A stretch of 64,000 bases of DNA from Prorocentrum cordatum (lineage: Eukaryota > Sar > Dinophyceae > Prorocentrales > Prorocentraceae). Made by a program: the position numbers and the translations under genes. The notes under the pieces are model-generated. The model worked only from the letters and a program-made list of their open reading frames with translations, ran no database searches and had not been told where the DNA came from. Shown here piece by piece: positions 33,295 through 56,648 of the stretch. The stretch's first letter is position 1, and the number at the start of each line of letters is the position of its first letter. The stretch is from NCBI GenBank assembly GCA_963575745.1, contig CAUYUJ010019881.1, forward strand, positions 43,501-107,500, read 5' to 3'.

Positions 33295-33329
33295 GTTAAA
33301 GTTAAAGTTAAAGACGGGGCCTTCAAGGC
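33295..33329 (-). other. Common 3' cassette and (TTTAAC)3 tail, unit A
   Basis: Minus strand GCCTTGAAGGCCCCGTC then TTTAACTTTAACTTTAAC. The first 11 bases form a palindrome (GCCTT G AAGGC). One of six near-identical copies; this one has three tail repeats. Confidence 0.9.
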
Positions 33330-33525
33330 ACAAGGAAAAAACAACCAGAACGCGGACACGGCCAGACGGGACAGCCGTTCCCGAAAGAAGCCGAGTCCCA
33401 AGCAGAGCGTGCCACGCGTGCCTACTCACCACGAGGAGCAACACCCGCGAGCGAAACGATGCTTATTCTTCACTCACTCACGGACGGCGGGCCGCGGTGC
33501 GCCAGACGGCGGCTGACCCTGCGGC

Positions 33526-34699
33526 TCACCCCTGGCCGCCGCTCGCCGTGCTGCTCGCGGCGGCCAACCTCCCCTCGGTGTCTCCGCGCATGCCGAGACG
33601 CTCAGCTCCCTTCGAAGCTGGCTGCTGCAGGGGCACGCTGGCATCCGCCACCTCCGCCGCCAGCACTGCCGCGGGAGCAGCTGGGCCTCTGCCTGCGCTG
33701 CTGGCTGCAGTCGAGGCACCGCCTGCAGACTCCGCCTTCATGTCGAACCACTCAAGGTAGCGCTCCTGGGCGTGCCCTGGCACTGGCCCTTGCGAACGCA
33801 GGGCGGGGATGCCCTCTCCCTTCACTCTCTGCTTGTCCGCTCGTGGCCTGCCTCCAGGATGGAGCCCTCGCGCCCACAGGCTGCGCTGGTTCCTGCCCGC
33901 CGTGCTCGTCTTGTCCCCTGGGCACCGCTCCTTCAGGCGAGGCTTGGCTCCTGCGCGGCTGCCCAGCACCTTGTAGGCCCCGCACCTGGAGCAGGCCACG
34001 ACCTCCTGGGCGTCTTCGCCTGCGCGGGCGTAGCAGAGCGTGTGCCCCAGGATGCTGAAAGCGACAGCAGCGGCCGAGATGGTAGTCGAGCTGCTCCCCG
34101 TCGAGCGGCTGCTCTGCAGGCATGGCCGCTTGGCGGGGGCGCCGATGCCGAGGGCCGCTCCAGCCAACGGAAGCACCTCGGCCGTAGCGGCCTGCGCCTG
34201 GCGTTGCTCGCCCGCAGGAAGGGGGCCCTTAGCAATCCTTGGTCGAGCCATCGAGGTACAGCTTGCCGTTGAGCCTGCCGTCAGCTGGCTTGCGACTCCT
34301 GCAGTTGCGCATCGCCCGGTGCATGTTGGAGACGTGGGCACCACGCACGTGCTGCTCCCTCGCGCCCAGCTCGATGCCTGGCCGCCCGAGCCGCCGCCCG
34401 ATGGCGTTCTCGAGAAACGGCCGAAGCAGGAGGGGGTTGCTGCTGAGCCTCCGCCTCTCATGGCGGTTGGGGGCCTGCCGAGCACCATGCCCATCCTTTA
34501 TGCTCAGCGCCTGAGGCCCGAGGAACATGGGCTCGAGCTCGTCACCGGGGTCCGCGACCTTGCACAGCTCTGACTCGAGGTACCAGCCGAACTGCTCCAG
34601 GGGCCGCACCACTGCTACGGTGGGCGAGGCACAGCGCCCCCCTGCGGCGCCACAAGCGCGCCTGGCTGCTGCCGCCTCCACCCCCCCCCCCCCCAACAC
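33526..34699 (-). pseudogene. Unit A RNase H remnant and C-terminal zinc ribbon
   Basis: The upstream frame has FGWYLESELCKVADPGDELE, PMFLGPQALSIKDG and GKLYLDGS, matching the 40685-39606 paralogue, where an RNase H core is clearer. After a shift the C-terminal part reads SILGHTLCYARAGEDAQEVV then ACSRCGAYKVLGSR, a CxxC knuckle followed by basic sequence and GIPALRSQGPVPGHAQERYL. The 3' end lies just before a GTGAGTGAGTG run. Confidence 0.65.
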
Positions 34700-34741
34700 A
34701 CATCCTGCGCGGCAGCTCGGCTGACTGCAGCAGGTCCGCCA

Positions 34742-35757
34742 TCACTGCCGTTGCCTCGAGATGCTCAAGTACTCCAACTTGGCCAACGAGGTCGCTCCAC
34801 TCGCTAGTGCCGAACTCGAGGGCCCGAACTCGTCCTCCTCACAGGCTGATGTGGTGGCTGCCTCCACATCGTCTAGGCAAAGCACCACCTGCCACAAATC
34901 CCTAGCCCCGCGCGAGGGCTGCCAGCGCCGCCTCCTGCCATCTGTGAGCCTCTGCAGCGCTACGTCGAGGGCCTGGCGCATGGCGTGGGCGGGGGCCGAG
35001 TGTCGGTGGCGGCACTCGTGCTTGACCGCCGCGCTGAGGGGCATGAGGACCGCAATGGGCCCTTCGGCCCGTCCCAGGTACCTGCGTAGGTCGCCGTCGT
35101 CGACGCCATGGATCCCCACCAAGGTGCACTCGACTACTTGGATCCACTGGCGAGCAGCCTCATTGGGGGCGCTCGGGTGGGAGCCCACCTCCCAGGACCA
35201 ACGGCAGGGCTCCACCTGCCTGCGAGTGCACTCCACGCGGCTGGGCACCTGGACGGCTCTATCTTCGCGGGGTCGGCGAGCTGCGGCGTCGCCATCAGGG
35301 AAACGAGCTGGGCGGACCAGCACCTGCGCCAAGGCATCTGGTCCCGCATCCTGAAGCCGCAGCCTTGCACTGGCGGGCCTCCTGCGCCCCTGCCCCCAGC
35401 TGCGTGGCCAGCAGGGCGAGCAGCCAAAAAGGCCAGGTTCGCTGCCTCGGCTGCCAGCTCCCGCTTGCAGGCCTGCGCCACCTGCGGCCACTCGCCGAGC
35501 GCGTTGCCATACCGCTCGGCTTGGCCGCGCTCCGCTGCGGCCTGGGGCTGCCAGGGGCCGCTGCTGCCTGCGAGGTTGCCGTCGTTGCCGTCGTCGCTGC
35601 TGATCTCGTCCACGGGGCAGGACTCTGCCCGCGGCGCTTGCGTGGGGGCCAAGGGGGGCCCAGCGAGCTGCGCTCGCACCGCCTCCATCTGGGCGCGGAT
35701 GGCTGCCCACGCGACCTCGAAGTTGCTGGAGGCCCGGGCCTCTGGCAGCTTGCCCAG
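34742..35757 (-). pseudogene. Unit A middle segment, unassigned
   Basis: Continues ORF1 homology (NFEVAWAAIRAQMEAVRAQL, SSGPWQPQAAAERGQAERYG, ACKRELAAEAANLAFLAAR; 35730-35440) as in the copy at 51205-51510. A frame shift then enters a roughly 200-codon stretch with QWIQVVECTLVGIHGVDDGD and RQALDVALQRLTDGRRRRW, ending at 34742. I recognise no domain in the second half. Confidence 0.5.
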
Positions 35758-36523
35758 CTATGTGGGGAGCCCTGGGACCTGGCTGGCTCCTGCCCACTCA
35801 GCTGCCCGCCGGCGCTCCCGCGCCTCCGCTTCCTCACGGGCGGCTTCCTCGAGGACCTGGAGCGCCCTGCTGGCCTCCTCCAGCGCGCCGCCCCGCTCCG
35901 CGAGCTCCTCCCGGGCCTTCTGGAGCTGGGCCTCCGCGAGGTCGCGCGCCGCCTGCTTCTGCTCCAGGTCCTGGCGGGCTGCGCGTAGCCGCTTCTCCGA
36001 CTTGCTGATGGCGTTGGCCTCTTGTGCAGCAGCGTCGACCGCGGCATGGTGGCGGCCTTCTGCTCCGCTGCTGCCTGCTGGGCCTTGGCCAGCTCTGCCC
36101 GCTTCGACTCCAGCTGGCTGGCCACGACGCTGGTGAAGCTGCCGTCCACGCCCTCGGGCGGCCCAGCCTGCAGCGCCTCCGGCTGCTCGACCGTCGCCTG
36201 CAGCCTCTCGACAGCCGTGACTCCACCGCCACTCGGCGCCCCACTGGCCGCAGACGCCGAGGTCTGCGACTTGGCGGATGCCGCTCGCGAGGCAGCGCTG
36301 CGGGCCTGCAGCTGGGCTTTGCGCCCCCTCGGCTGGTCCACCCAGCCGTCCTTGTCGGCCTTGGGCTTCCCCGCGGCGGGGCTGACCCCAGAGCCCAGGG
36401 CGGCGCTGCATACCCGCAGCTGAAGCAAGAGGCTCGCCAGTCCCAGTACCAACCTCCGCAGCTGCACATCCAGTACGGCCTGCTGAGCTTGCCACTGCTG
36501 CCGCCACGCGAGGAGCGCGCCAT
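35758..36523 (-). pseudogene. Unit A ORF1: zinc ribbon plus coiled coil, two frameshifts
   Basis: The ATG at 36523 opens MARSSRGGSSGKLSRPYWMC, completing a C-x-C ... C-x2-C ribbon (WMCSCGGWYWDW, SCFSCGYAAPPWAL) that resembles RanBP2-type zinc fingers. The frame then shifts into KADKDGWVDQPRGRKAQLQ, a Ser/Ala-rich linker and GGVTAVERLQATVEQPEAL. It shifts again into an Ala/Glu/Arg coiled coil (ISKSEKRLRAARQDLEQKQ through EEASRALQVLEEAAREEAEA), with a stop at 35758. It is paralogous to the intact ORF at 51513-52304. A nucleic-acid-binding ORF1 role is inferred. Confidence 0.7.
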
Positions 36524-36666
36524 GGCCCCAGGCGCACGGGCTGAGCGGTCGCGCCTCCGCGCTGCGAAAGCCAGGAGCAGAACAACAGAGTGCACTGGCC
36601 CAAAGCGAGGAGCCCCTCGTGCTCGGAACGCCGCGGACGACCCGCGGTCGTCGGGTGCTCCATGGC

Positions 36667-36688
36667 CTTGAGCCAAAATGGCTACGGA
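36667..36688 (-). other. Dinoflagellate spliced-leader relic (22/22)
   Basis: Minus strand matches the 22-nt dinoflagellate SL exon (core GTAGCCATTTTGGCTCAAG). It is not followed by a GT donor, so it is not an SL RNA gene. It sits at the 5' end of unit A, 143 bp before the zinc-ribbon ATG, as expected for a reverse-transcribed, trans-spliced mRNA. Confidence 0.95.
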
Positions 36689-36793
36689 CCGTGCTCCTGT
36701 GTTCTGCCGTGCTCCTGTGTGTTATGCCATGGTCCTGCTCTGCCGTGCTCCTATGTGTTATGCCGTGCTCCTGCGTCTGCCATGCTTCTGCGT
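36689..36793 (-). repeat. GGAGCACGGCAGAACACA monomers between units C and A
   Basis: About five or six degenerate 18-21-bp monomers between the tail of unit C and the SL of unit A. Confidence 0.88.
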
Positions 36794-36828
36794 GTTAAAG
36801 TTAAAATTAAAGACGGGGCCTTCAAGGC
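36794..36828 (-). other. Common 3' cassette and tail, unit C
   Basis: Minus strand GCCTTGAAGGCCCCGTC then TTTAATTTTAACTTTAAC. It ends the unit encoding the 35-residue-repeat protein. Confidence 0.9.
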
Positions 36829-37018
36829 GTAGGGGGGGGGGGAAGGAAAAGGGACCGAGGGGCCTCCAGGGGCGCTGAGCGCCACCCGAGACACGCCCTC
36901 CCGAGAGGGGCCGCCTAGGGCCGCCTCTCCCCGCGGGGGCCGCACTGGGCCTCCACCGCGGCCGCGCCGCAAGGCGAGAACAGATCTACATGCAGAATGC
37001 AACTGCCTGCCTCACGCA

Positions 37019-38560
37019 CTACTCTTGGGCCGCGTCGTGCCACGCGCGCGGGCCAAGAGACCATCGAGGAGCCGCGCGCGCTCCTCGGCATCTGGACAAC
37101 CTGCACTGCCGAGGTGGGCGCCGAAGGCGCGGGCCTCGGCCCAGTCCAGGGGCGACTCCACTCCCGACTTCGGCCCCTGGGCCGCACGCGCCACCGCCAC
37201 CACCGAGAAGTCGTCCAGGAACGAAACGAACCCGCACTCCGAGCCCGAGTGGCCCCTGAGCCTCTGCTGCTTCGGGGTGGGCTGGTCCGTCTCCAGCGCG
37301 CCCGTCGCGCAGCGCCGCTCCCTGCTCCGAGACGGGGGCGGCGGCAGCGGTCGGCGGCGCCAGCACCTGCTCCTCGAACGTCTCGCCCTTCTGCGTGAAG
37401 AGCGGCTCGATGAACGCATTCTCGCCGAGCACCTGGTCGACGCCCCCGTCGTCGCTGATGGCGCCCAGCACCGTCTCGCCCTTCTGCGTGCAGAGCGGCT
37501 CGATGAACGCGTACTCGCCGAGCCTCTGGTCCACGCCCACGTCGTCGCTGATGACGTCCAGCGCCGTCTCGCCCTTCTGCGTAAAGAGCGCCTCGATAGA
37601 CGCGTTCTCGCCGAGCACCTGGTCGACGCCCGCGTCGTTGCTGATGACGTCCAGCACCTGCTCCTCGAACACCTCGCCCTTCTGCGCGAAGAGCGGCTCG
37701 ACGAGCGCATCCTCGCGGAGCACCTGGTCGACGCCAACCTCGACGCGGATGATGTCCAGCACCTGCTCCTCGGACGTCTCGCCCTTCTGCGTGAAGAGCG
37801 GCTCGATGAACGCGTCCTCGCCGAGCACCTGGTCGACGCCCGCGTCGTTGCGGATGACGTCCATCGACTGCTCCTCGAGCGCCCCGCCCTCCTGCGTGAA
37901 GAGCGGCTCGATGAACGCATTAACGCCGAGCACCTGGTCGACGCCCACGTCGTCGCCGGTGACGTCCAGCACCTGCTCCTCGAACGTCTCGCCCTTCTGC
38001 GTGCAGGGCGACTCGATGAACACCTTCTTGCCGAGCACCTGGTCGACGGCCTTCTTCACCTCATCGATGCCCCTCTCACCAGGCACCTGGGCCACCTCGA
38101 GCGCTGCCAACAGGGCGGACTCCCGCGCCCTGGCTGCCACCTCGCCTGCGCAGCTGGGGGCAAAGGCGGGCGCCTCGGCACGCAGCAACGTGCTGTGGCC
38201 CGCGATGACGCACTCGAAGGCCTGCGCTTGCAACGGCAAGCCGTCAGGCAACTGCGGGGCGCCTCCTGCAGCCTCCAGGGGGGGCGCGTGCCGGGCGCGG
38301 TCGCCGAAGTGCAGCGCGCCCTCGATCTCCAGAAGCTCGTCGCGTGGCAACTGGAGGAGCCTGGCCGCTGCCAACGCCTCTCCCATGCTGGGGCAATGCG
38401 CCCCCAGCCGATCACGTAATCGCCGGCGTGCACGGGGCGAGGCTCGGAGCGCCTTGCCGCGCGACGCCAGCGCGGCGGCGCGAGACGCTCCGAGCTCCTG
38501 TCGAACTTCTCGGTGATTCTTCTGCAATGCTCCTATGTGTGTTTTTGAATGTTCTGGCAT
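37019..38560 (-). CDS. Unit C: intact ORF with seven 31/35-residue repeats, unknown function
   Basis: Open from an ATG at 38560 (alternative, perhaps better, ATG at 38386: MGEALAAARLLQLPRDEL) to the stop at 37019. An Ala/Glu-rich N-terminal region is followed by seven tandem repeats (38047-37349), consensus GVDQVLGENAFIEPLFTQKG plus ETFEEQVLDVIS. Copies 5 and 6 lack four residues (31 instead of 35), so indels are all multiples of three. The C-terminal 130 residues are Gly/Ala/Arg-rich. Antisense frames are also open, a by-product of the in-phase repeats. The strand was chosen from the SL and cassette orientation of the unit. It shares its 3' UTR type with unit D, not with the LINE units. No family recognised. 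Confidence 0.6.
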   Translation of the reverse strand: MPEHSKTHIGALQKNHREVRQELGASRAAALASRGKALRASPRARRRLRDRLGAHCPSMGEALAAARLLQLPRDELLEIEGALHFGDRARHAPPLEAAGGAPQLPDGLPLQAQAFECVIAGHSTLLRAEAPAFAPSCAGEVAARARESALLAALEVAQVPGERGIDEVKKAVDQVLGKKVFIESPCTQKGETFEEQVLDVTGDDVGVDQVLGVNAFIEPLFTQEGGALEEQSMDVIRNDAGVDQVLGEDAFIEPLFTQKGETSEEQVLDIIRVEVGVDQVLREDALVEPLFAQKGEVFEEQVLDVISNDAGVDQVLGENASIEALFTQKGETALDVISDDVGVDQRLGEYAFIEPLCTQKGETVLGAISDDGGVDQVLGENAFIEPLFTQKGETFEEQVLAPPTAAAAPVSEQGAALRDGRAGDGPAHPEAAEAQGPLGLGVRVRFVPGRLLGGGGGACGPGAEVGSGVAPGLGRGPRLRRPPRQCRLSRCRGARAAPRWSLGPRAWHDAAQE

Positions 38561-38570: not shown

Positions 38571-38605
38571 GTTAAAGTTAAACTTAAAGACGAGGCCTTC
38601 AAGGC
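38571..38605 (-). other. Common 3' cassette and tail, unit E
   Basis: Minus strand GCCTTGAAGGCCTCGTC then TTTAAGTTTAACTTTAAC; one substitution in the cassette relative to the others. Confidence 0.9.
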
Positions 38606-40735
38606 AAGGCGATGTCCAGAACAACACGCGGACAAGGCCAGTCGGGACCCACGTTCCCGAAAGACGCCGAGTCCCATCAAGCCCCGAAGGTCACGAAAGC
38701 CTACTCACCACAGAGCAACGAGCATGGGCCTCACGGATGCATATCTTCCTCTCACTCACGGACTGCGCCTCGGCGCGCCAGACGGCGGCGCCAGACGGCG
38801 GCGCCTCGGCGCAGCGGCCGCAGCCGCAGAGGCCTCGCTCAGGCTGCGCGAGGCGGCCACAAGCGTTGCGGCAGCCGCTGGAGCATTGCCTGCACAGCTC
38901 GCAGCGGACGGGCCGCGCACTGCAGGCTCCGCTGCGATGTCGCGCCACTCCAGGTATCGCTCCTGGGTATGACCTGGCACTGGCCCTTGCGAACGCGGCT
39001 CAGGGATGCCACCTCCCTTCACTCTCTGCCTGGCAGCTCGAGACCTGCCACCAGGATGGGGCCCCCGCCGCTGCAGGCTGCGCTGGTCCCCGCTTGACTT
39101 GTCCGTCTTGTCGCCTGGGCGCCGCTCTTTGAGGCGGGGCCTCACCCCCGAGCGGCCGCCTGACACTTCGTGGGCGTCGCACTTGGAGCAAGCGACGACC
39201 CCCTGGGTGTCCTCGCATTCCCAAGCACTGGCATAGGACAGGGCGTGCTCCAGGACGCTGAAGGCGACGGCGCTGGCCGAGGGGGCGGGCGAACTGCAGC
39301 TCCCCGGGCGGGCGCTCTCCAGGCGTGGCCGCTTGGCCAGAGCCCCCGCGCCAACGGGCTCCACTGCGGCCAGGGGCGCCTCGACGGCCACGGAACGCAT
39401 CTGGCGCCGCTCAGCAGCAGGAGGGAGCCCTTCGCCCTCCTTGGCCTCGATGCCTCGCTCGACGAAGGCGGCCTGACTGACCCGGCGTCCTAGTTCACAC
39501 ACCAACGCTGCCAGTGCGTGGTGCTCGCCTACTTTCTGCCTGTCCACTGCGTGCAGCTGGCGCCCCGACTTGGCTAGGCGGTCTGCGCGCTCGCTGCCGC
39601 GCTTCTCAGTCTCCGTCAGGAGCTCGTAAGGGAATACCTGCCTCAAGCAGCATGTTGGCCCCTTCTTCGTCACGAACACACCTGGCTCGAAGGCCGCCGC
39701 GATCCTGCTCCACAGGTGGGCGTTGGTCCTGCTGGGCGCAGGGGCGCCCGCTCGCCCTCCACAGGCAGGCCGTGGCGGTGCCGCAGTCGGTGTTGACCTT
39801 CTCCCCCGTAGGCCCCGCATAGTTGACGGGGGTCCCGCCAGTGGAGTCCTCGCAGTTCTTGGCCGTCTGCTGCGGGCGGAGGTCCCGCCTGTCGGCGCCG
39901 TCCACGAGGTCCAGCTTGCCGTAGAGCCCGCCGACAGCTGGCCTGCAAACGCTCCACCTACTCCCATTAGGGTGCGCGTTGGAGAAGTAGGCGCCTCCCG
40001 CGAGCCGCCCCCTCACACTCAGCTCGTTTCCTGGCCCGAGCAGCTGTCCGATGGCGCCCGCGAGCAGCGGTCGATGCAAGGGGGGGTCGCGGCTGAGCTT
40101 CGGCATCACATTGCGATCGAAAGCCTGCCGAGCTCCCAGGCCAACCTCAATGCCTAGCGCCCTGGGCCCGAGGAACATGGGATCGAACTCGCCGCCGAGG
40201 TCCGCGGCCAGGTACTGCTTCGACTTGAAGTGCCAGCCGAACCGTGCCAGGGTCTGCCGCTCCGCGTCGACGGCCGAAGCACAGCGCTTCCGCCTGGCGG
40301 CAATGGCGTGCCTGTCCTCTGCCTTCTCCAGCTCATGAGCCTCCATCCTGAGCGGCCGCTCGCCCGACTGCAGCAGGCCCGCCATCCACCGCCGCTCATG
40401 CAGCGTGCCTGGCTCCGTGCCGGGGTCGCCCTGCAGGTACAGCGCTCCCCTGGCTCCCTTGCGCCCATGCGGGGCAAGGCGGACCTCCTGGAGCAACGCC
40501 GCCAGGGCTGCCCCTGCGGCCTGGCCTGGCGCCGGTGGGGCCAGCGCTCTCCCGAGGTTGCGGGGCCGCTGGCTTCCGAGGCGGGCCGCCTCGGCGCGGC
40601 TGCACTCCTGCTGGCGCGGGTCCGCCGCACTGGCCTCGCTAGGCGCTCGTAGGCCCTGGCTGCGCGCCCCCGATGCGGCCCCCAATTGCGCGGCCAGCCG
40701 TGCGAGCCTTGCAAGGCAGCTACTAATGGACAGCC
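38606..40735 (-). pseudogene. Unit E: 5'-truncated LINE-like element, RNase H and C-terminal zinc ribbon
   Basis: Starts abruptly near 40735 inside coding sequence (5' truncation typical of LINEs). The first long frame (40685-39606) has LARFGWHFKSKQYLAADLGG and DPMFLGPRALGIEVGLGARQ. RNase H features follow across a shift: VNTDCGTATACL, NAHLWSRIAAAFEPGVFVTK and GSERADRLAKSGRQLHAVD, the last matching the 'GNxxADxLAKxG' end of dinoflagellate LINE RNase H domains. The C-terminal part has FSVLEHALSYASAWECEDTQ then VVACSKCDAHEVSGGR (CxxC) and GIPEPRSQGPVPGHTQERYL, ending before a GTGAGTGAG run. Paralogous to units A and D2. Confidence 0.7.
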
Positions 40736-40984
40736 CCTGAATCCAGGAAACAATTTAATTACATGAAAAATGTAATAAATAAGCGATGTGAAATAAGTCA
40801 AAATTAAGCCGCTGCCGTATGTTCTTACAGAAATAACAAAAATATACAAGGCCCCGAATGCAACGGCAGCGGCGGCGGCGACGCGACGGCAAAGCAGAGA
40901 GAAGGGAAATAAACTGCAACAGCGCAACTGTCAGGAGAAAGTGAGTTCCAGCCGGAGAGGTTGCGTGACATCGCATGGCGAATC
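40736..40984. other. AT-rich flank of unit E, no gene seen
   Basis: 40745-40860 is the most AT-rich stretch nearby (AATTTAATTACATG, TGTAATAAATAAGC, containing an ATTACATGAAAAATGTAAT inverted repeat). It may be the old target site for unit E. Confidence 0.5.
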
Positions 40985-41260
40985 ACATTGAAACAAAGGA
41001 AGCAGAAGGAGGAGGAGGAGGAGAAGGAGGGGAAGGATATGGACGAGGAGGAGGAGAAGGAGGAAGAAGTTGATAGAGGAGGGCGAGGAGGAACACGAGG
41101 AGTTGGACGAGGATGACCACGGCGACGAACACGAGAAGGGGTAAAGGGAGGAGGAGAAGGAGGAAGAGGAGGAGGAGAAGGAGGAGGGGGAAGAAAAGAG
41201 GAGGGGGATGAGGAGGAGGAGGAGCAGGACGAGGACGAGGAGGAGGAGGAGGAGGGGGGT
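40985..41260. repeat. GGA/GAGGAGGAG purine tract
   Basis: About 270 bp of G/A-rich triplets. Confidence 0.92.
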
Positions 41261-41402
41261 GGACATTTTTCGAGCATCCCCCACGAGTGGAAACCCTGCC
41301 GCAGCAGGCTTGCTGCATCCACGAGCACCAGCCCCCACCCCCGCTGATGCGGAAAGGAGTGAAGGCGCTGAGTTGGGCTTGGCGGGGATCGCTGTGGTCT
41401 TA

Positions 41403-41697
41403 TCGCAGGCCCGCCGCAGGCGCCGATTTTGAATCGCAGCAAAAATCTGCATTGATATCGCAAGCCCGCAAACGACGCTATTTCTTTAGAAGAAGAAAAC
41501 GGATACTGTTTGCAAGCCTGCCGCAAGCACCGATTCTGCATTGAAGCCAAAACCGGCGTGATGATGGCAAGCTTGCCGCAGGCGCCGATCTTATGATCAG
41601 GAAACGAATTATGATTGCAAGCCCGCCGCAGGCACCGATTAAAAACTGAAGCTGCAACAAGCGTGAAGATGGCAAGCCCGCCGCGGGCGCCGATTTT
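41403..41697 (-). repeat. GGCGCCTGCGGCGGGCTTGC interspersed array, locus 1
   Basis: Six copies of the GC-rich core (plus strand GCAAGCCCGCCGCAGGCGCC) at 48-56-bp spacing with AT-richer spacers. Same family as 49080-49200 and 50746-51085; the orientation here is opposite to 50746-51085. Confidence 0.85.
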
Positions 41698-42109
41698 TTT
41701 CACCGGAAAGTAAATTATAGGAAATCAGTGGCGACATTCTACTGGCGAAGCGTTCGGCGACAAAACGCCAATCCAATAATAAACGATTTCAACTAGAAAT
41801 GAATGGCGTAGCGTTGGTAGAGGCGCAACTATCTAATTGCGAAAGCATGCGAGCCCGCGCGATGCTTCATGCCCAAGTAGGCCACTCCGAGAAATGTGCG
41901 AGCAGCACGGTTGGCACGAACGAAATCGAAAACAAGTCGACCGCGAAGAACGACGACGCGAACACGACCAGGAAAAGCAATGCAATTCGCAAGGGCGAAA
42001 CATTAAAACAAAAGTCCGGGCAAATAGCAATGCGACGGCGGCAATCAAGGCAAGCGTACCTTCGCAGACCGCTGAAGATCGCGCAAACAAGCGCTAGGCC
42101 GAAACAAAC
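41698..42109. other. Intergenic, no gene seen
   Basis: AT-moderate unique sequence, several open frames without motifs. Confidence 0.45.
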
Positions 42110-43740: not shown

Positions 43741-43756
43741 AAAACGCTTCCAAAAC

Positions 43757-44734: not shown

Positions 44735-44755
44735 TCGCGTGATGAATATGGTTGT

Positions 44756-47690: not shown

Positions 47691-47786
47691 AGACGCCCCC
47701 GGATCCCCCAGAGGGGCGCTAAACGGGAACCCCTCCTCAAGGTCGGGGAAAAAGGGTCAGAATTACAAAGGTTCCACGCTCGGAAA

Positions 47787-48180: not shown

Positions 48181-48435
48181 GCCCCCCCCCCCGTCCTGCT
48201 CCTCCCCCACCTCCTCCTCCTCTTACTCGCAACTCCCCCCCCATCCCCCCTCCCCCCTCTCATCCTTCCCCCCCCCCCGTCATCCTTGCGTTCCCCCACG
48301 CCCTCCTGCTCAATCCCCGCCGTTATCACCCACTCCTTTTTCCCCCATTCCCCCGGCTTGCCCCCCTGCGCCTCCTCCCCGCCCTGCCCCCGTCCCGATC
48401 CGCGCGCGGGCGCAGGGGCGTGAGGGTTGGGAGCA
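48181..48435. repeat. C-rich CCCCCCTCC tract
   Basis: Runs of C with T interruptions, parallel to 46370-46560. Confidence 0.85.
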
Positions 48436-48660
48436 AGTACAATGTTCAGATACGACGCGGGGCACGACCTGCGCGCGGGCACAGATATCGCGACGGCTAG
48501 GGGAAATATATAACGATGCTAACATGTTAAAATTCGCCGCATGGCACGATCCGCGGCCGGGCACAAGGATCGCAAAGGCCAGGGGTAAGATCGGGCGATG
48601 TTCCAATCCGTCGACGGCACGATTTGCGAGCATGCACAAATATCGCGAGGGTTGGGCATC
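48436..48660 (+). repeat. Three-copy 70-80-bp repeat
   Basis: GGCACGA(C/T)(C/T)(T/C)GCG...GGGCACA..ATCGCGA words at about 48462, 48543 and 48614. Confidence 0.7.
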
Positions 48661-49079
48661 CTCTAGGCGCCTGCGACACGGCCGCGGGGCCCACGCCGTC
48701 GGCGCCCACGCATCATAGCGGAAACGCGCCATGCAACGTTGCGCAATGCAGCGACTCACGTCACGGCGCACTGCGGAGCGCCGCTTCTTGCGCGCATGAT
48801 GTGTGGAATTTTGCGACACGCGCATTGAATCTGTGTGGTTGGGCCTTAGGGACGGTATCTGATGCATGCGTTATGACAACGTTGGAACAGCTTAAGTGAT
48901 GGCAATAAGGACACGCGCGCGATGCGTGGGTGGCGGTTGGCCCCGTAGTCCAAGTTGGGACGTGCGCACGATAGCGCCATCCTTCGGCGCCACCAAAACA
49001 AATTTCAAAAAATGCAAGAATATGTTGTCGGAGCTTCGGGTTTGTTTCCCGGTGGGCGCAAGACCTGAAGAACACGAAT
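48661..49079. other. Intergenic, no gene seen
   Basis: Unique sequence; no motif in either strand. Confidence 0.5.
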
Positions 49080-49265
49080 TCATTGCGCAAGCCCACCGCA
49101 AGCGCCGATTTGCCATTAAAAACGCGAATGACATGACGATCGACGCCGATTATTTCAAGAGCCATGAGGAAATCACACGCGCCGCAGGCGCCGGTTTTTG
49201 TCTTGCACAGAACAAGCCTTCCCCCCTCCCACGAGGCCGCGGAGGCCCCCCTATTGGGCGGCATG
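49080..49265 (-). repeat. GGCGCCTGCGGCGGGC family, locus 2 plus conserved flank
   Basis: Two to three diverged cores, then GCAGGCGCCGGTTTTTGTC and a 75-bp flank (CCACGAGGCCGCGGAGGCCC) that is the reverse complement of 50670-50750. Inverted relative to locus 3. Confidence 0.75.
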
Positions 49266-49440
49266 GCCGGGGGGGGGGGGGGAAGAGGTGGCGGCGGCGG
49301 AGGGTGGGGGGGGGGGGGGGGGGGGGGGGGGAGGGGGGAGGGGGAGAGGAGGGGGAGGAGGAGGAGGGGGGGGAGGGAGGATGGAGGCGGAGGGGGAGGG
49401 GGCGGAGGGAGAGGAGGAGGGGCGGGCAGAGAAACAGTGA
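49266..49440. repeat. Poly-G/GGGGA tract
   Basis: Long G runs (up to about 25 G) with GGA interruptions; strong G-quadruplex potential. Confidence 0.92.
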
Positions 49441-50669
49441 AAACATAACGAAAACATAGCAAAACAAATGCGGGAAAAAAGGTGCATCCCCGGGGACTTT
49501 TGCGGCGCCTATTTTTTATATTGTCTCGCTATTATTTCGGCGGCCGAAACAAACAATTCCGCGCGCATGTTTCTCGCTATTTATCGTCATTGTTTCGCTA
49601 TTTTTCGCTATTTATTATGCAAAAAAACGGAAATAGACAAACAAATGAGTTTCGCTGGGCGCGCCTATTTTTTCCATGGGAATTATGCAATAAATGTGAA
49701 AACCATAGGTCAGCCGAAGCGATTGACAATGTAGAAAAAATGAATGAAAAAACATTAGAATAAGAAAAAAACATAGAAGCGAAATGATGCGTTCCCCGGG
49801 GCCGCCGGCCGGAGCAAGGTGAAACAGCGCGACGCCGCCGGGAATCCTGCGGCGGATTGCTGCCGCCCCACCCCAAAAAGCCTTGCCCCACCCCCCTGCC
49901 GCAAACACCATTGGGTAGAGAGGCGGGCCGCCCCGGGCGGGGGGGCGGGCGGGGGCGCAACGCCAAACGAAGCGCGCAGCCGCGCGGGTCGCAAACGAGG
50001 CGGCGTGACTCTTGTAGCGGGGCCCAACAGTGCATCCCGTCGGCCCTGTCGGCGACCCCTGCTTTCTCAAACGAATTCCTCGTCGGGGATGGGCGCGACC
50101 CTTGTCCCGGACCCCCTTATAGCAGGTCCACCAAAGCGCCCGCGATGGCTCAAAAATTGCCCCCGCATGCGGCAGGGCTCAAGACGGCCCGCGATACGGC
50201 TCCAGATAGCCAGATCTTCCAAGACCCAAAGCGCCACCACGCCCTGAGGCACGGAGCGGGCGTGTTCCGACGTCATCTACCTCACTCTTGAGCCTCAGTC
50301 CTCTGTCTTCAAAATTATTTGAAGGACCTGGTGCCCAAACTCAGAAATCTTCTGGGCCCCCCCGCGCCTTTCCGCATGATTTGTGGGAAGCAATTTTGCG
50401 ACCCCTCCGGATGCGAAATTCCCCCCCCCCCCACCCCCCCACCCACCCAAAGAGGCCCCGAGAGGCAACGAGGGCCCCCAAGAGGGCCCGCAAGGGGCCC
50501 CAAAGAAGCCGCAAGAGCTCTCAAGAGTCCTCCGAAGAAGGCCCCGAGAGGCCAACATCGGAGTGAGGAGGGGGTTCCGCCCGCGCGAATTCGTTTCAAG
50601 TCGCGCGCGTGTCGGTTGCTCTGGGGTCGGCAAGTCGCCCCGTTATTTCTTTGTTCTTCCGGCCAATGG
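49441..50669. other. Intergenic, no gene seen
   Basis: 49455-49780 is AT-rich for this window (GCTATTTATCG, TTATGCAAAAAAACGG words). 50440-50560 has CCCCAAGAGGC-family words. No coding motif. Confidence 0.45.
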
Positions 50670-51085
50670 CGGGGGCGGCAGGCCCGCCAATGGGGGGGCC
50701 TCCGCGGCGTCGTGGGAGGGGATGGGCCCTTTCGGTGCAAGAAAAAATCGGCGCCTGCAGCGGGCTCGCGATCTTCATTCCACTTAAGGCTTCGCTGAAC
50801 AATTGGCGCCCGCGGTGGGCTTGCGACAAGAATTCGCGCTCTGGCGATGAAATCGGCGCCTGCGGCGGGCTTGCCGCCCACATGTTTTTTTATCGCTTCA
50901 ATGAAAAATCCGCGCCTGCGGTGGGCTTGCGACAAGAATTCGCGTTCTGGCGATAAAATCGGCGTCTGCGGCGGGCTCGCCATCCTCATGCTGGTTCAGG
51001 CTTCAATCCAAATCGGCGCCTGCGGCGGGCTTGCGATCGAAATTTGTTGTCTGGTGGTAGATTCGGCGCCTGCGGCGGGCCTACT
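50670..51085 (+). repeat. GGCGCCTGCGGCGGGCTTGC array, locus 3 (seven copies)
   Basis: Cores start at 50746, 50801, 50851, 50907, 50957, 51011 and 51061 (spacing 55, 50, 56, 50, 54, 50). Spacers alternate between an ACAAGAATTCGCG(T/C)TCTGG type and a ...GGCTTC(A/G)..GAA type, so the true unit is a dimer of about 105 bp. Confidence 0.9.
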
Positions 51086-51205
51086 CCTATGGTATATGTA
51101 TATATGTTGAAGATGTGTTAACGATCTATTTTCGCAACCTAATTTTCCCTACTTTGAAACTGTTCCACATGCCTGAACCTGTGCATATGACCTTCATTCC
51201 AATGC

Positions 51206-51512
51206 GAGCCGCCAGAAGGGCCAGGTCCGCTGCCTCCGCAGCAAACTCCCGCTTGCATGCCTGGGCGACCGTCGGCCACTCGCCATGCGCGTTGCCACCG
51301 CGCTCGGCTTGGCCTCGCTCCGCGGCTGGCCGTGGCTGCCAGGGCCCGCTGCTGCCTGCGAGGTCGCCATCGACACTACTGACCTCGTCCATGGGGCAGG
51401 ACTCCGCCGAGGGCGCTCGCCCGGGGGTCGCAGGGGGCCTCTCCAGCTGCGCGCGCACCGCCTCCATCTGGGCGCGGATGGCTGCCCAGGCTGCCTCGAA
51501 GTTGCTGGAGCT
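51206..51512 (-). pseudogene. Unit B ORF1 continuation after the TAA
   Basis: Same frame as ORF1: SSNFEAAWAAIRAQ, SSGPWQPRPAAERGQAERGG, ACKREFAAEAADLALLAAR. Homology to unit A ends at the LLAAR codons (about 51205). Confidence 0.65.
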
Positions 51513-52304
51513 TTAGGCCGCGGGCAGCTTATCCAGCTGCATGAGGGGCCCTGGCACCTGGCTGGCCCCTGCCCACACGGCTGCGCGCTGGCGATGCAGT
51601 GCCTCAGCCTCCTCACGGGCCGTCTTCTCGAGCACCTGGAGCGCGCGGCTGGCCTCCTCGACCTCCGCATCCAGCTTCGCGAGCTCCTCCTGGGCCTTCT
51701 GGAGCTGGGCCTCGACGAGGCCGCGCGCCGCCTGCTTCTGCTCGAGCTCCTGGCGGGCTGCACGGCGTCGCTTCTCCGCCTTGCTGATGGCGTTCGCTTC
51801 CCTGTGGGGCTGCGCCGACCGCGGCAGGGAGGAGGCCTTCTGCTCCGCTGCTACCTTCTGCGCCCTGACCAACTCGGCGCGCTTCGCCTCCAGTTGGCTG
51901 GCCACGACATCGGTGAAGCAGCCGTCCACGCCGTCAGGCGGCTCCGCCCGCAGCGCCTCGAGCTGCTCGACAGCCGCCTGCAGCCTCTCGATCGCCGTGG
52001 CCCCTCCACCGCTGGGCGTCCCACTCGCCGCCGACGCCGAGGCCTGCGACTTGGTGGAGGCTGTTCGCGAGGCTGCTCTGCGGGCCTGCCTCTGGGCACG
52101 GCGCCCTCGCGGCTGATCCACCCATCCGTCCTTGTCTGCCTTCGGCCTTGCCTTGGCGGAGGGCATTCCCAGCGCCCAAGGCGGCGCCGCATACCCACAG
52201 CAGAGGCACGTGGGCCGCCAACCCCAGTTCCAACCTCCGCAACTGCACATCCAGTAGGACCTGCTGCGCCTGCCGCCGCCGCCGCCACGCGGGGACCTCG
52301 CCAT
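51513..52304 (-). CDS. Unit B ORF1: zinc-ribbon, coiled-coil protein (about 263 aa)
   Basis: Starts at the ATG at 52304, 144 bp after the SL. MARSPRGGGGGRRSR, then the ribbon YWMCSCGGWNWGW / PTCLCCGYAAPPWAL, a basic KARPKADKDGWVDQPRGRRA segment, a Ser/Ala/Thr linker, GATAIERLQAAVEQLEALRA, DGCFTDVVASQLEAKRAELV, and a long heptad-like coiled coil (NAISKAEKRRRAARQELEQK to EEASRALQVLEKTAREEAEA). The TAA at 51513 may be premature: the same frame continues with NFEAAWAAIRAQMEAVRAQL as in unit A. It is the least broken of three paralogues (35758-36523, 55406-56167). Likely an RNA-binding ORF1 of a LINE; that role is inferred. Confidence 0.72.
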   Translation of the reverse strand: MARSPRGGGGGRRSRSYWMCSCGGWNWGWRPTCLCCGYAAPPWALGMPSAKARPKADKDGWVDQPRGRRAQRQARRAASRTASTKSQASASAASGTPSGGGATAIERLQAAVEQLEALRAEPPDGVDGCFTDVVASQLEAKRAELVRAQKVAAEQKASSLPRSAQPHREANAISKAEKRRRAARQELEQKQAARGLVEAQLQKAQEELAKLDAEVEEASRALQVLEKTAREEAEALHRQRAAVWAGASQVPGPLMQLDKLPAA

Positions 52305-52447
52305 GGTGCTCGCTGTGCCGCCCGCGGGGCTGCGCCCCCGCGCAGCGAAAGCAGGAAGCAAAACGCTGAAATGCACTGGCCCAAAGCGCGGAGACCCTCG
52401 CGCCCAGAACGCCGCGAACGACTCGCGGTCGTCGGGTTCTCCATGGC

Positions 52448-52469
52448 CTTGAGCCAACATGGCTACGGA
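52448..52469 (-). other. Spliced-leader relic (21/22)
   Basis: Matches the 22-nt SL with one substitution (ATGTTGG instead of ATTTTGG). The next bases AAGGCCATGGA equal those after the SL of unit A, so both copies come from the same 5' UTR. Confidence 0.93.
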
Positions 52470-52480
52470 TGCACCAATGT
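52470..52480 (-). repeat. Single monomer remnant between units D and B
   Basis: Minus strand ACATTGGTGCA separates the TTTAAC tail of unit D from the SL of unit B; one partial GGAGCA-type monomer. Confidence 0.6.
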
Positions 52481-52515
52481 GTTAAAGTTAAAATTAAAGA
52501 CGGGGCCTTCAAGGC
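52481..52515 (-). other. Common 3' cassette and tail, unit D
   Basis: Minus strand GCCTTGAAGGCCCCGTC then TTTAATTTTAACTTTAAC. Confidence 0.9.
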
Positions 52516-52655
52516 AAAGTGGGAAAACCCTACGAAACCAAAACGGGGCGGCCCCAGCGGGCCTGGGCAGGCGGAAGGGCCGCCCCCTCAGACGCCCACC
52601 CACCCCCCTCCGAGGCGAGACCAGATCTTCAAAAAGAATGCGACTGCACGCCTAA

Positions 52656-52686
52656 CTCACTCACTCACTCACTCACTCACTCACTC
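52656..52686. repeat. (TCAC)n at the end of the unit D ORF
   Basis: Seven TCAC units (GTGA on the coding strand) spanning the stop codon. Shorter GTGAGTGAG runs sit at the ORF ends of units A, E, D2 and F. Confidence 0.9.
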
Positions 52687-53757
52687 GGCCCCGAGAAGCC
52701 GCAGCCCCTCGGCCAGATCGCCGCTCAGGATTGCCGCCTGGGCCGCCACGGCCGCGGCCAGCCGCTCCTGCGCACTCCCTCCAGGGGCATCGGCCTCGAG
52801 ACGCCTGCCCTTGCCCTTGACGGGATCGGCAGAGAGGCCCACAACGCTGCACTCCGCGAACACGTCGTCGTAGCCGACCTTGGCCGCGACGCCATCATTA
52901 GCGTCATCGTCCATGTGGCTGCACTCCACCTTGCGGCAGTCCGTGACCAGCTGGGCCGTCACCTTGGGGACAATCGCGTCCTTGAGCTTCTCGGAGTCGA
53001 TCTTGGTCTCCCCGTTGTTGAGCCGAGTGTTCACCAGGGCCAACTCACCCATGGCCGATGCCACCACCTTCACCTCGTCGGTGGCCTTGTCAACTGGAAG
53101 ACCAGCTTCTTCATCTCCCCCCTTCTTCTTCTCCACCGGCTCCAACGGGACCTTCACCTCCCGACCCTCCTCGTAAAAGAATAAAGTAAGAAAAGAAAAA
53201 GAAGACAAAAGAAAACAAGAAACCTAACCTCGACGAAGAAAGAAAAAGAAAAAGGAAACAAGAAGAAAAAGAAAAAACCATAAAGAAAAAAGCAATAAAA
53301 AATAGAAAGAACGAACGAGAGGAGAAAAGGGAAAAAAAGCGCGCCGCTCCTTCACTGCCCCGCGCCCCTCGTCAGTGGTCGCGGTGTCCGCCGGCCGCCG
53401 CCGACTCAGCGTCGTCACACCGGCTACGGACGTCCACGACCGGCCCCTCCCCCGGCGAGACCTGGCATCGCGCGGTGGCGGCACTCATGGGGCCCTCCGC
53501 CGAACTCGCGCGCTGGGCCCAGCCGCGGGCGCGGCACGGCGCCGCAGCCCGCGTCCAGCAGCGGCGGCGGCACCGCCACCTGCTGCCGCCCGCCACCGCC
53601 TTCGGCCGCGCCCGCCGCAGCCGCCTTCACGAGCGGGGCGAGCAGCGCCACCGCTTCCCAATCGAGGGGGCGGACCGTCGCCATCGCCCGAGCCGCAGCG
53701 GGGGGGCGCGCCGCCCGCCCAGCGCCCGAAGCCAGTTTGAGCCAAAATGGCTACGGA
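52681..53757 (-). CDS. Unit D: SL-tagged small gene, perhaps two exons, unknown product
   Basis: The SL relic at 53736-53757 is followed by an ATG at 53684 opening MATVRPLDWEAVALLAPLVK (86 codons to 53424). After a 170-bp pyrimidine tract (about 53340-53175) a second frame runs from about 53175 to 52681: EGREVKVPLEPVEKKKGGDE, AMGELALVNTRLNNGETKID, DDDANDGVAAKVGYDDVFAE and AAVAAQAAILSGDLAEGLRL. The second part has no in-frame ATG before 53052, and the tract ends in AG, so an intron joining the two is plausible. If so, the SL copy is not from a fully cis-spliced mRNA. No family recognised. The 3' UTR resembles that of unit C. Confidence 0.5.
53172..53340 (-). other. Long polypyrimidine tract within unit D
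   Basis: Minus strand is T/C-rich (TTTTTCTTTTTCTTC words) for about 170 bp and ends TTTTACGAG. It resembles an intron 3' end but could be UTR. Confidence 0.55.
53736..53757 (-). other. Spliced-leader relic (21/22)
   Basis: Matches the SL except the last base (A instead of G at 53736). It follows the tail of unit D2 after about ten bases. Confidence 0.93.
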
Positions 53758-53767
53758 TGCTCCAAAT

Positions 53768-53797
53768 GTTTAAAGTTAAAGACGGGGCCTTCAAGGC
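53768..53797 (-). other. Common 3' cassette and short tail, unit D2
   Basis: Minus strand GCCTTGAAGGCCCCGTC then TTTAACTTTAAAC, the shortest tail of the set. Confidence 0.9.
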
Positions 53798-54880
53798 AAG
53801 CGGGAAAACACGGACAGGGCCAGACGGGGCCCACGTTCCCGAGAGGAGCCGAGTCCCTAGCGAGCACCGGGGGCGACGGAAGCCTACTCACACGGGGAGC
53901 AGCTGGCGCAAGCCTCACCGACGCACATATTTCCTTCACTCACGGTCGGCTCGCCACGGCGCGCCAGGCGGCGGCGTGCCCCGCGGTCCTCCAGGGTGCC
54001 GACTGCTGCATTGGCCGCGGCGGCGAGCTCCTCCTCGGCGATCTCGAGGGCCCCAAGGAGCCCAGCTCTCGCCGCGGCTGGGCGCCGCAGAGGCTGGCTG
54101 GCAGCGGCCGTCGCGATGGGCGCGACCGCGGGGCCTCGCCAAGTCCCCCTGCCACCTCAGCTCTGCGGCTGCCGCTGGGGCGCTGCCCGCACTGCTCGCA
54201 GTGGCCGAGGAGTCGACTGCTGGCTCCGCTGCGATGCCCTGCCACTCCAGGTGCCCCTCCTGCGCATGCTCGGGCAAAGGCCCCTGCGAACGCAGGGCAG
54301 GGATGCCACATCCTTTCACTCTGTGCCTGGCAGCTCGCGCCCCCTCTTGCATCCTGCCTCCTGGATGGAGTCCCCGTGGCCACAGGCTGCGCTGGTTCCT
54401 GCCCGCCTCGTCGGCCCCGCCGCCTGGGCAGCGATCCTTGAGGCGAGGCCTCTCCCTTGAGTGGCTGCCCAGCGTCGCGCAGGCGCCGCGCATGGAGCAC
54501 GCCTCGAGCGCCTGGGTGCCCTCCCCTTCTCCAGCGCAGGCGTAGGGCAGGGCGTGTCCCAGGATGCTGACGGCTACAGCCCTGGCCGAGAGGGCGGCCG
54601 AACTGCTGCCGGTCGAGCTAGCGCTCTCCAGGCGTGGCCACTTGGCTAACGGCCCAGCGCCAGCGGTATCCTCCGCCGCCCGGGGCTCCTCGACGGCGGC
54701 AAAGCGCACCTGGCGCCGCTCCGCAGCAGGAAGGAGCCCTTCGCCATCATTGGCCGCGATGCCGTGCCAGAAGTTGGCGGCCCGACAGCACCAGCGCCCG
54801 AGCTCCTGCATGATCTCCGCCTGCGCGTGGTGGTGCTTCAGCAAGGTCTGCCGTGTTCCCGAGCGCCCCGAGCGACTCCA
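53798..54880 (-). pseudogene. Unit D2: 5'-truncated LINE-like C-terminal zinc-ribbon segment
   Basis: An open frame from 54844 to 53936 paralogous to the ends of units A and E: GEGLLPAAERRQVRFAAVEE, GPLAKWPRLESASSTGSSS, VAVSILGHALPYACAGEGEG, then LEACSMRGACATLGSHS, where the second Cys of the CxxC is Arg, so zinc binding is weakened. It ends GIPALRSQGPLPEHAQEGHL before a GTGAGTGAAGG run. The 5' truncation near 54880 abuts monomers. Confidence 0.65.
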
Positions 54881-54894
54881 CGCCGCGCTGGCCG

Positions 54895-55120
54895 ATGCTC
54901 CTGCGTGGTCTGCCGTGCTCCTGTGTGTGTTGCCATGCTCCTGTGTGTTCGGCCGTCAATTATGCCGTGCTCCTATGTGCTCTGCCGTGTTCCTATGTGT
55001 ACTGCCGTGCTTCTGTGTGTTCTGCCGCGCTCGTGCTTGCTCTGCCGTGCTCCTATGTGCTTCGCGTGTTCTGGCAAGCTCCTGTGTGGCATCCCATGCT
55101 CCTGCGTGGTCTGCCGCGCT
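54895..55120 (-). repeat. GGAGCACGGCAGAACACA monomer array (about 11 copies)
   Basis: The longest monomer array. Minus strand units such as ACACAGGAGCATGGCA and ACATAGGAGCACGGCAGAGC of 18-22 bp, between the tail of unit F and unit D2. Confidence 0.9.
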
Positions 55121-55151
55121 AAGTTGAAGTTAAAGACGGGGCCTTCAAGGC
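55121..55151 (-). other. Common 3' cassette and tail, unit F
   Basis: Minus strand GCCTTGAAGGCCCCGTC then TTTAACTTCAACTT. Confidence 0.88.
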
Positions 55152-56648
55152 AAGTGGTGGCCAGAACGCAAACAGAGGAGGCCACCTTGGGCCCCCTCCC
55201 AGACACGTGCAACACAAACAGAAGGCGAAACCTCTGGTATATACTACACAAGACAACCATCAAGTGCAGCACTGACAAGAGCATATGCTACACAAGACCA
55301 CACCAAGTGCAGGACCGAAAGTAATATATACGACACAATATCCCATTCGACTCGCAACTGCACTAATCCACTCACTCGCTGCGTGTTCTGCGGGGCCTAT
55401 ACGAGCTACAGTCCTCCGCACAATCTGAGAAGGCGATCGATCTCTCTGGCGCGCTCAACAGACATCCCAGGCGGAAGGGCTTCAACCAGACGAGGCCCGA
55501 CCGCGAACCTCGCCCTATGATGCAGCGGCCCCCGTGTGGGAGGAATCCTGAGGCCGAAGGAGGCGCCCTCGATCACGCGCATGAGGTCAACGGCATTTGC
55601 GTGGCGCGTCCAGGCGGGGCCCAGGAACCCTGGCGCGCTCCCCCGCCGAAGAATACCACGCATGCCCGAGCAGCTCCCAATCTCGAAAGCGCGCGGGGCA
55701 TCAGCAAAGCGGACTCTCCGCACCCGCAGTACACCGCCCGCAGCCTCGGGGACGGCGTCCTCGTCCAGCGATGGCCCCAGCCAGACTCTGGCGACTGCCG
55801 CGCGCGCCAGCCACCAGCCAGGGGCACGACGAGATGCCGCACTGCCAAGCTGCGAAACTGGCACGGCGAGGCCTTCTGCTCCGCTGTCGCCTTTTGGGCC
55901 CTGGCCACCTCGGCGCGCTTCGCCTCCAGCTGCCTGGCTGGCCACGACGTCGGTGAAGCAGCCGTCCACTCCTTCAGGCGGCTCGGCTTGCAGCGCCTCG
56001 AACTGCTCGACTGCCGCCTGGAGCCCCTCGATCGCCGTGGCGCCTCCACCGCTGGGCGTCCCACTCGCTGCCGACGCCGAGGTCTGCGACTTGGTGGAGG
56101 CTGCCCGCGAGGCCGCGCCGCGGGCCTGCCTCTGGGCACGGCGCCCACGTGGCTGATCCAACCCCACCCCGCCCCCATCCCCACCACCCCCACAACACCC
56201 CGCCTTCCAATACCCCCACCTTCACCACCCCTCAACCACCCCCCACACCCACCCAACAATACCTCCAAACAACACTATCCACACCCCCAATTCACCACCC
56301 TGCTCCCCCCCCCACCCCATCCCCCACGCACACCAACAGCCGTCCTTCGTCTGCCTTGGGCCTCCCCTGGGCTGGGGACATTTCCCCGCCTCGGGCGGGG
56401 CGCCTCCCATTACCCCACAGCACAAAGGCCCGAGGCGCGCCAATCCACCGTTCCACCCTCCGTAGCCTTGCACATCAGTTAGGGATCTGCTGCGGCCTGC
56501 TGCTGCCACCGCTGCTCTGGCGGACCTCGCTCCATGGCGCGCGCGCGCTCCCTTCTGGCCGAGGTGGGCTGCGCCTCCGTGGGCGGGGTCTCCATGGCAA
56601 CTATGTAGGATACTTGGCCAAAAAGCGCGGAGACCCTCGCGCTCAGAG
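55152..56648 (-). pseudogene. Unit F: diverged ORF1 copy with a different C-terminus
   Basis: The start region has a degraded ribbon (GYGGWNGGLARLGPLCCG, MGGAPPEAGKCPQPRGG), then an insertion of GTGGGG-rich low-complexity DNA (56155-56340). From 56167 an open frame reads LDQPRGRRAQRQARGAASRA, GATAIEGLQAAVEQFEALQA and DGCFTDVVASQ, then after a shift relative to unit B a different sequence: VLRVRRVRFADAPRAFEIG, HANAVDLMRVIEGASFGLR and MSVERAREIDRLLRLCGGL, stop at 55406. The new C-terminus has no recognised family. The 3' UTR (55405-55152) is unlike those of the other units. Confidence 0.6.

Follow-up and report, generated by a model that had tools for sequence, protein, structure and literature searches.

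A probable LINE family and its spliced-leader-capped partner units share a 3′ tail in Prorocentrum cordatum

Cassette-ended units in the window

The 64,000-nucleotide stretch of Prorocentrum cordatum DNA analysed here (contig CAUYUJ010019881.1 of assembly GCA_963575745.1, positions 43,501 to 107,500; referred to as the window) holds an array of minus-strand units that end in one short sequence, the cassette GCCTTGAAGGCCCCGTC, directly followed in each case by two or three TTTAAC-like repeats. The cassette was matched six times in the window, always on the minus strand (five exact matches and one with a single mismatch); shuffled windows gave a mean of 0.47 matches and reached six in 0 of 100 shuffles. 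The tail repeats gave 10 overlapping matches against 0.48 expected, and matches to the spliced leader (SL) lay at 36667-36687 (exact) and at 52448-52468 and 53736-53756 (one mismatch each), where 0 were expected. An earlier note on this DNA, which had described six cassettes with TTTAAC-type tails and SL relics at the start of three units, was borne out on these points. Its cassette sites were right, but the coordinates it gave were the low ends of the tails, and the cassettes lie inward of them. The note had also taken the cassette for a tag by which unrelated mRNAs are retroposed. The finding is real and well above chance: the cassette is the end of a 3′ tail common to a likely long interspersed element (LINE) family and to non-autonomous SL-capped partner units. 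In this probable LINE-driven mobilisation the range of passengers is narrower, and the tag longer, than the note stated.

33313-33329 (−): cassette of unit A; tail 33295-33312
36812-36828 (−): cassette of unit C; tail 36794-36811
38589-38605 (−): cassette of unit E, one mismatch; tail 38571-38588
52499-52515 (−): cassette of unit D; tail 52481-52498
53781-53797 (−): cassette of unit D2; tail 53769-53780
55135-55151 (−): cassette of unit F; tail 55123-55134

Self-comparison of the window identified units A, S/E and D2 as copies of one element, and unit F as sharing sequence of the first open reading frame (ORF1) with A and S. Unit E had been described as a separate unit, which it is not: it is the 3′ half of an element whose SL-bearing 5′ half, here called S, lies at 52469-51204. 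The S half is 80.6% identical to unit A at 35416-36688. The units and spacers are as follows.

33226-33294 (no strand): 20-bp minisatellite of GGAGCACGGCAGAACACATA type, 3′ of unit A; first 12 bases are the end of the 3′ duplication copy
33283-33297 (−): 3′ copy of the unit A 15-bp duplication, identical to the 5′ copy; overlaps the last AAC of the tail
33295-36688 (−): unit A, LINE copy whose 5′ end carries an SL (T plus SL, 36667-36688); ends in cassette plus (TTTAAC)3
36689-36703 (−): 5′ copy of the unit A 15-bp target-site duplication, AACACAGGAGCACGG
36690-36793 (no strand): 20-bp minisatellite, spacer between units C and A
36794-38530 (−): unit C, partner unit with 35-residue-repeat ORF, without SL; start approximate
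38571-40394 (−): unit E, LINE 3′ half with RNase H-like region, C-terminal zinc region and 3′ untranslated region (UTR)
40395-51203 (no strand): about 10.8 kb between S and E, the halves of one LINE copy
51204-52469 (−): S, 5′ half of the S/E LINE copy, with SL (52448-52468), RanBP2-like zinc finger (by eye) and coiled coil
52481-53757 (−): unit D, SL-capped partner unit (SL 53736-53756)
53769-54880 (−): unit D2, 5′-truncated LINE 3′ end with RNase H-like and C-terminal regions; start approximate
54876-55117 (no strand): 20-bp minisatellite, spacer between units F and D2
55121-56651 (−): unit F, chimera; start approximate
56638-56738 (no strand): 20-bp minisatellite on the 5′ side of unit F; its low end runs into the approximate start of that unit

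Unit A retains an endonuclease (EN) remnant, and LINE-segment matching detected no reverse transcriptase (RT) segment in it. Truncation at the 5′ side is seen in D2 and F, which lack the SL and the 5′ end (no SL was found in unit F), and unit C is probably 5′-truncated as well; the last 467 nt at its 3′ side match L009_8401, L013 and L017, partner units from elsewhere in the genome, at 91-94% identity, and unit D aligns over 85% of its length to L028_6467 at 87% identity. The earlier description of unit F was confirmed, in that a diverged ORF1 segment is followed by a change to a different 3′ half. The 20-bp minisatellite between units was missing from that account. No poly(A) is present on the units, since the longest A-run within 60 nt after the cassette is 5. 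The interval at 40395-51203 contains inverted copies near its ends (41402-41699 and 50742-51037) and inner inverted repeats (42110-42608 and 44238-44734, 93% identical). Some of this interval could be diverged LINE sequence; the self-comparison found nothing there that matches unit A 34751-35415.

LINE copies and partner units across the genome

The proteins closest to those encoded in the window come from P. cordatum. The P. cordatum assembly searched comprises 4.13 Gb; the published genome is given as 4.15 Gb (PMC10666404). The cassette with up to two mismatches occurs at 2416 places (reversed control 824), and GCCCCGTCTTTAACTTTAAC, which joins the cassette end to two tail repeats, has 166 exact copies (reversed control 0). 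Viral contigs held 0 copies of the cassette with tail. Among the places listed, many cluster on one strand of shared contigs, like those in the window. Our sample was drawn from the 100 exact places listed: the first 48 along the contigs were taken except C4080:515903, which leaves 47, and the sample is therefore not random. The fetched DNA consisted of 40 stretches, half of them 10 kb and half 3 kb long, and contained 47 exact cassettes. A double-TTTAAC filter removed four exact cassettes (L013 6530, L018 8401, L033 and L036), two stubs shorter than 100 nt were also removed, and neighbouring cassettes with 1-3 mismatches were retained (they make up 7 of the 54 units, including one in the window). 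The 54 units classified, 48 fetched and 6 from the window, were assigned with a LINE match threshold of E ≤ 1e-5. An SL is present at the 5′ end in 26 of the 54, many fetched stretches stopping short of the unit's 5′ end.

Segments of the LINE protein P0005 were matched by 28 of the 54 units (by unit F weakly, at 66 bits), its RT segment by 11, and both EN and RT by 3. The layout of the family is zinc finger, coiled coil, endonuclease, RT-like region, RNase H-like region and C-terminal zinc region. The earlier note had asked whether a full-length LINE with RT ends in the cassette. A copy that has EN as well as RT-like segments does so: L025, which is 4.33 kb long, with an SL, six of seven tested segments (EN, RT-like and RNase H-like included) and the cassette at its end. 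In two other copies, unit A and L041, both LINE ends are kept and no RT segment was detected (internally deleted LINEs). The C-terminus of unit E has 25 relatives among P. cordatum proteins, the longest of 1733 aa, and in these Pfam recognised EN in 3 (best E 0.0011), zf-RVT in 2 (best 0.0043), RT at E 0.059 and 0.12, and RNase H at 0.10-0.12, all of them below Pfam cut-offs. In P0005, weak EN, RT, zf-RVT and RNase H-type matches, each below its cut-off, stand in LINE order, and the stretches LDIAKFY and VVDDVALQ resemble, by eye, what we take to be RT motifs A and C. We treat the assignment of the family to LINEs as likely. The P. cordatum gene models P0006, P0008 and P0012 seem to fuse partner-type or repeated LINE N-termini to LINE sequence, and some annotated P. 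cordatum proteins may therefore come from reading through one mobile unit into the next.

No LINE protein segment was matched at the same threshold by the other 26 units, of which 17 are SL-capped, so that the cassette also occurs outside the one LINE family; its restriction to such a family was an outcome that the earlier note had named as fatal to its idea. Among these 26, L015, L024 and L034 hold masked letters, and L022 and L048_2701 are without an assigned ORF. Partner units are mostly 1.2-1.8 kb long, and several of their ORFs are open for about 370-490 codons (maximum 494). BLASTP in a 14-sequence database linked partner proteins C, J, G, K, M and I and the protein P0002 at E ≤ 1e-3, and linked the D and H proteins to each other; it found no match between partner proteins and the LINE N- or C-terminal protein (reversed control 0). 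The passengers had been regarded as unrelated mRNAs. Many of their ORFs do encode proteins other than those of the LINE, but because they are mostly linked by protein similarity and mosaic exchange they form mainly one mosaic set and are not independent mRNAs.

A host-domain match was recognisable in one of eight partner proteins scanned, that of L019; another gave DUF6890 at 0.03. The L019 ORF (7149-8093, +) lies between SL and cassette, and its residues ~185-280 resemble phosphoglycerate kinase (PGK) in Pfam (2.9e-4), NCBIfam (3.3e-5) and the PDB (best 2.5e-5; all 6 listed matches are PGK). The scores are under the Pfam and NCBIfam whole-protein cut-offs, yet the three libraries agree. We do not claim PGK in unit D, which aligned to the PGK part of L019 at 33-38% identity with an expect value of 0.02-0.09 (2.5-kb database) and gave no PGK match in Pfam, NCBIfam or the PDB. 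For the ratio of nonsynonymous to synonymous substitution (dN/dS), three pairs of partners gave 0.71, 0.53 and 0.70, and another pair gave 1.2; constraint on partner ORFs is at most weak. A structure prediction for P0010 had a mean pLDDT (predicted local distance difference test score) of 43.5 and was not used. The partners are not short interspersed elements (SINEs), since 0 tRNAs were found either in 11 loci that hold partners or in the window at 33-57 kb, Rfam at gathering thresholds gave 0 matches in the window, and the ORFs reach 494 codons.

Shared tails, insertion signatures and mosaic units

To compare tails, the last 130 nt before the cassette were aligned between LINE and partner units, with unit F grouped as non-LINE (a 27/27 split). 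Between some types the common part is indeed limited to the last 30 bp, but LINE and partner units elsewhere share 115-128 nt of 3′ UTR: the pair L027/L032 has 115 nt in common at 95% identity, and L024 and L028_8401 share 126-128 nt with L018_1303 at 86-87%. In L027 the ORF stops at nt 1531, LINE identity begins near nt 1600, and the last 200 nt are 88-94% LINE-like; the LINE 3′ UTR therefore sits on a foreign ORF. The same 3′ tail occurs on the autonomous-type copies L025 and L023 and on the 17 SL-capped units without LINE segments. The tag idea of the earlier note is therefore largely right as regards a tail on LINE and non-LINE units, though this tail is often a longer LINE 3′ UTR. A short hairpin is possible in the cassette; a free-stem search (leading bases trimmed) returned 187 exact places, against 0 in the control.

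Target-site duplications were assessed in the 26 SL-units by comparing the 17 bases before the leader's T with the unit's own 3′ flank, against shuffled pairings. The flank score was 320 against a shuffled mean of 217 (sd 9.8) and was reached in 0 of 2000 shuffles; taken separately, the 9 LINE units scored 113 against 78 and the 17 non-LINE units 207 against 141 (0 of 2000 shuffles each), and an earlier version of the test, with tail parsing, gave 0 of 300. The duplication of unit A is a perfect 15 bp, and others are exemplified by AACCCAAAGAACAC at L009_6499 and AACAAGTAGGAGCAT at L019. L025 has a 16-bp flank match outside the minisatellite (CGCCACCGACAGAGGT), the last base of which is possibly the leader's own T. 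Duplications often begin with an AAC that also forms the tail end. The minisatellite lies within 283 nt downstream in 40 of the 54 units and within 60 nt upstream of 21 of the 26 SLs. With SLs and target-site duplications present, the cassette does not behave as a 3′-processing signal of ordinary tandem genes that lack any retroposition signature, the other outcome named beforehand.

A T, the first base of the 22-nt leader, precedes 40 of the 42 SLs in the fetched loci and the window, and this suggests that copying reached the RNA 5′ end. None of the 42 genomic SLs has a second SL within 30 nt, though several families have many SL-bearing copies. The source copies may have no SL in their genomic sequence; if they do have one, it must be replaced exactly by the new SL.

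Several units are mosaics. L048_2107 is of type G to nt 700 (85-94%) and of type C from nt 1200 (86-95%); L028_8401 is of type J to nt 700 (84-94%), and its last full 100-nt bin is 98% L024-like. Unit F is 90-97% identical to LINE L010 at nt 500-800 and 88-93% to partner L044 at nt 800-1500. L048_2107 and L028_8401 show what is expected of a template-switch chimera, a sharp fusion inside one duplication pair; their flank scores were 14 and 11, which 1 and 0 of 25 others, respectively, reached or exceeded. Judging from these sequences, RT template switching would explain fusions that keep SL and tail, with DNA recombination between arrays as the alternative.

Origin of the arrays

We consider it very probable that target-primed retrotransposition produced the array in this region and that the LINE enzyme also copies SL-capped RNAs sharing its 3′ end. 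The LINE family would make an SL-capped RNA whose 3′ UTR ends in GCCUUGAAGGCCCCGUC followed by (UUUAAC)n, and its enzyme, presumed to recognise the tail RNA, would copy this RNA plus other SL-capped RNAs with the same 3′ end; the tail would then be required for mobility. Priming may occur when the terminal AAC pairs with a GTT end at the nick, which would fit the duplications that begin with AAC. New partners could arise if RT, having begun on the tail, then jumps to another SL mRNA as template, the resulting fusion keeping the tail and becoming mobile, and the head-to-tail arrays could result from repeated same-orientation insertion into the asymmetric minisatellite.

Several results weigh against this interpretation. 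The LINE domain matches are individually weak, all under Pfam cut-offs; P0007, P0009 and P0013 have none of these domains at E ≤ 1, the P0022 RT stretch gave no RT in Pfam or the PDB, a whole-family profile gave no RT in the PDB, and the LINE RT alignment gave no match to the window's other RT (29642-30940). Eight partner tails (seven of unit-D type and L048_2701) have no LINE tail match at E ≤ 1e-3, those of F and L044 match LINE over 27 nt only, and those of L012_6220 and L021 over 54-58 nt at 87-88%. No covariation was found for the cassette hairpin, the 3′ arm being nearly invariant among the 100 places listed. Four exact cassettes are without the double tail, and that of L036 is followed by a long T-run; L036 also contains an SL. 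For 12 of the 26 SL-units the 5′ flank had a better match in another unit's 3′ flank than in its own, and L018_6968, L030 and L047 show little sign of duplication.

The units could instead be ordinary tandem genes multiplied by unequal crossing-over, with the cassette as a 3′-processing or termination signal and the SL as a relic of one old retroposition. Their head-to-tail arrangement on one strand with short spacers would suit this, as would gene models (P0008, P0012) that look like neighbour-unit read-throughs; but flank duplications fit single units, LINE and non-LINE alike, L025 has its 16-bp flank match in non-minisatellite DNA, neighbours within one array differ in kind, and nearly half of the units (26 of 54) have an SL at the 5′ end, all of which makes this origin very improbable. 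We find it hardly credible that the cassette marks one LINE family only, the other ORFs being decayed or rearranged LINE sequence: 17 of the 26 non-LINE units are SL-capped without LINE segments, partner proteins match each other and not the LINE N- or C-terminal protein, with no match in the reversed control (14 sequences), and several partner ORFs are open for some 370-490 codons, even though the 3′ UTR is common to LINE and partner units, unit A and L041 are internally deleted LINEs, 5 of the 26 could be LINE remnants, and the L015 tail is 95% like that of LINE L043.

The partners may be one old non-autonomous family with its own ORF that happens to share the LINE tail, its mosaics being formed by DNA recombination between arrays and host mRNA capture being absent or very rare. 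We regard this as a serious contender, if somewhat short of an even chance. BLASTP joins the proteins C, J, G, M, K, I and P0002 at E ≤ 1e-3, dN/dS values of 0.53-0.71 in three pairs (1.2 in the fourth) suggest some ORF constraint in source copies, and a host-domain match was seen in just one of the eight partner proteins scanned; the PGK fragment in L019 and switch points of the LINE/partner kind (unit F) as well as the partner/partner kind speak against it. Target-primed copying by the LINE enzyme could also extend to a transferable mobilisation tag, in which LINE RT welds its tail onto other SL mRNAs, host genes included, and the fusions are re-fusable, with the minisatellite as landing site and RNA-based gene shuffling as the result; we put this forward tentatively, holding it a little less likely true than false.

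Dinoflagellate genomes contain thousands of SL-tagged retrocopies. No earlier report of a system like the present one was found in a literature search of open-licence PMC papers. Zepp-type LINE clusters of green algae, which consist of nested copies, resemble it in the clustering of LINE copies, but the target here is a 20-bp minisatellite and the clusters mix LINE and partners. LINEs of the UnaL2/ZfL2 type share their tail with non-autonomous SINEs. As in these stringent LINEs, UnaL2 and ZfL2, the 3′ tail here ends in short tandem repeats and duplications flank the copies (PMC4176376); unlike the SINEs of stringent LINEs, the partners are SL-capped, mostly 1.2-1.8 kb long and without a tRNA-like head, and carry long ORFs, and tail recognition is something we infer. 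In Magnaporthe, chimeric retrogenes formed by LINE template jumps fuse transcripts including that of the LINE, and a tripartite one has 14-bp flanking repeats (PMC2104539), whereas the chimeras here occur in multi-copy groups, are protein-coding and have recombined again, by a putative mechanism. Internally deleted elements such as the SIDEs Persaeus and Zenon (PMC6740152) are paralleled by unit A and L041, with both LINE ends and no RT segment detected, but most SL-capped partners carry other ORFs and are not deleted LINEs.

The dinoflagellate SL-tagged retrogenes (PMC6050394, PMC12014239) share with our units a genomic SL at the 5′ end of the copied mRNA. Retrogene transcripts described in PMC12014239 carry tandem SL relics, in contrast to the 42 cases here, where no SL is doubled. 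The accessible text of both papers names neither the enzyme nor a 3′ signal for SL retrogenes; in the present units a LINE tail and duplications are seen. The 2018 review (PMC6050394) leaves the type of retroelement open while favouring long terminal repeat elements of the Ty1/copia kind. A LINE family with SL-bearing copies, whose tail is also found on other SL-capped coding units with target-site duplications, thus provides a candidate enzyme and a candidate 3′ signal for SL retrocopies. If true, this would be an RNA-level route for coding-module shuffling in a lineage with huge, retrocopy-rich genomes.

The window also contains another LINE with RT at 27055-31200 (minus strand), without the cassette. 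When 210 of the window's 286 stop-to-stop ORFs of at least 120 aa were scanned with Pfam, its RT frame at 29642-30940 (−) was the one clear RT (E 1.5e-12). This LINE was rejected as the source of the six tails, as a (TAGCA)n array and no cassette lies downstream (27055-27358). Just upstream of the RT frame, three 87-bp tandem copies, 93% identical, occupy 31337-31599.

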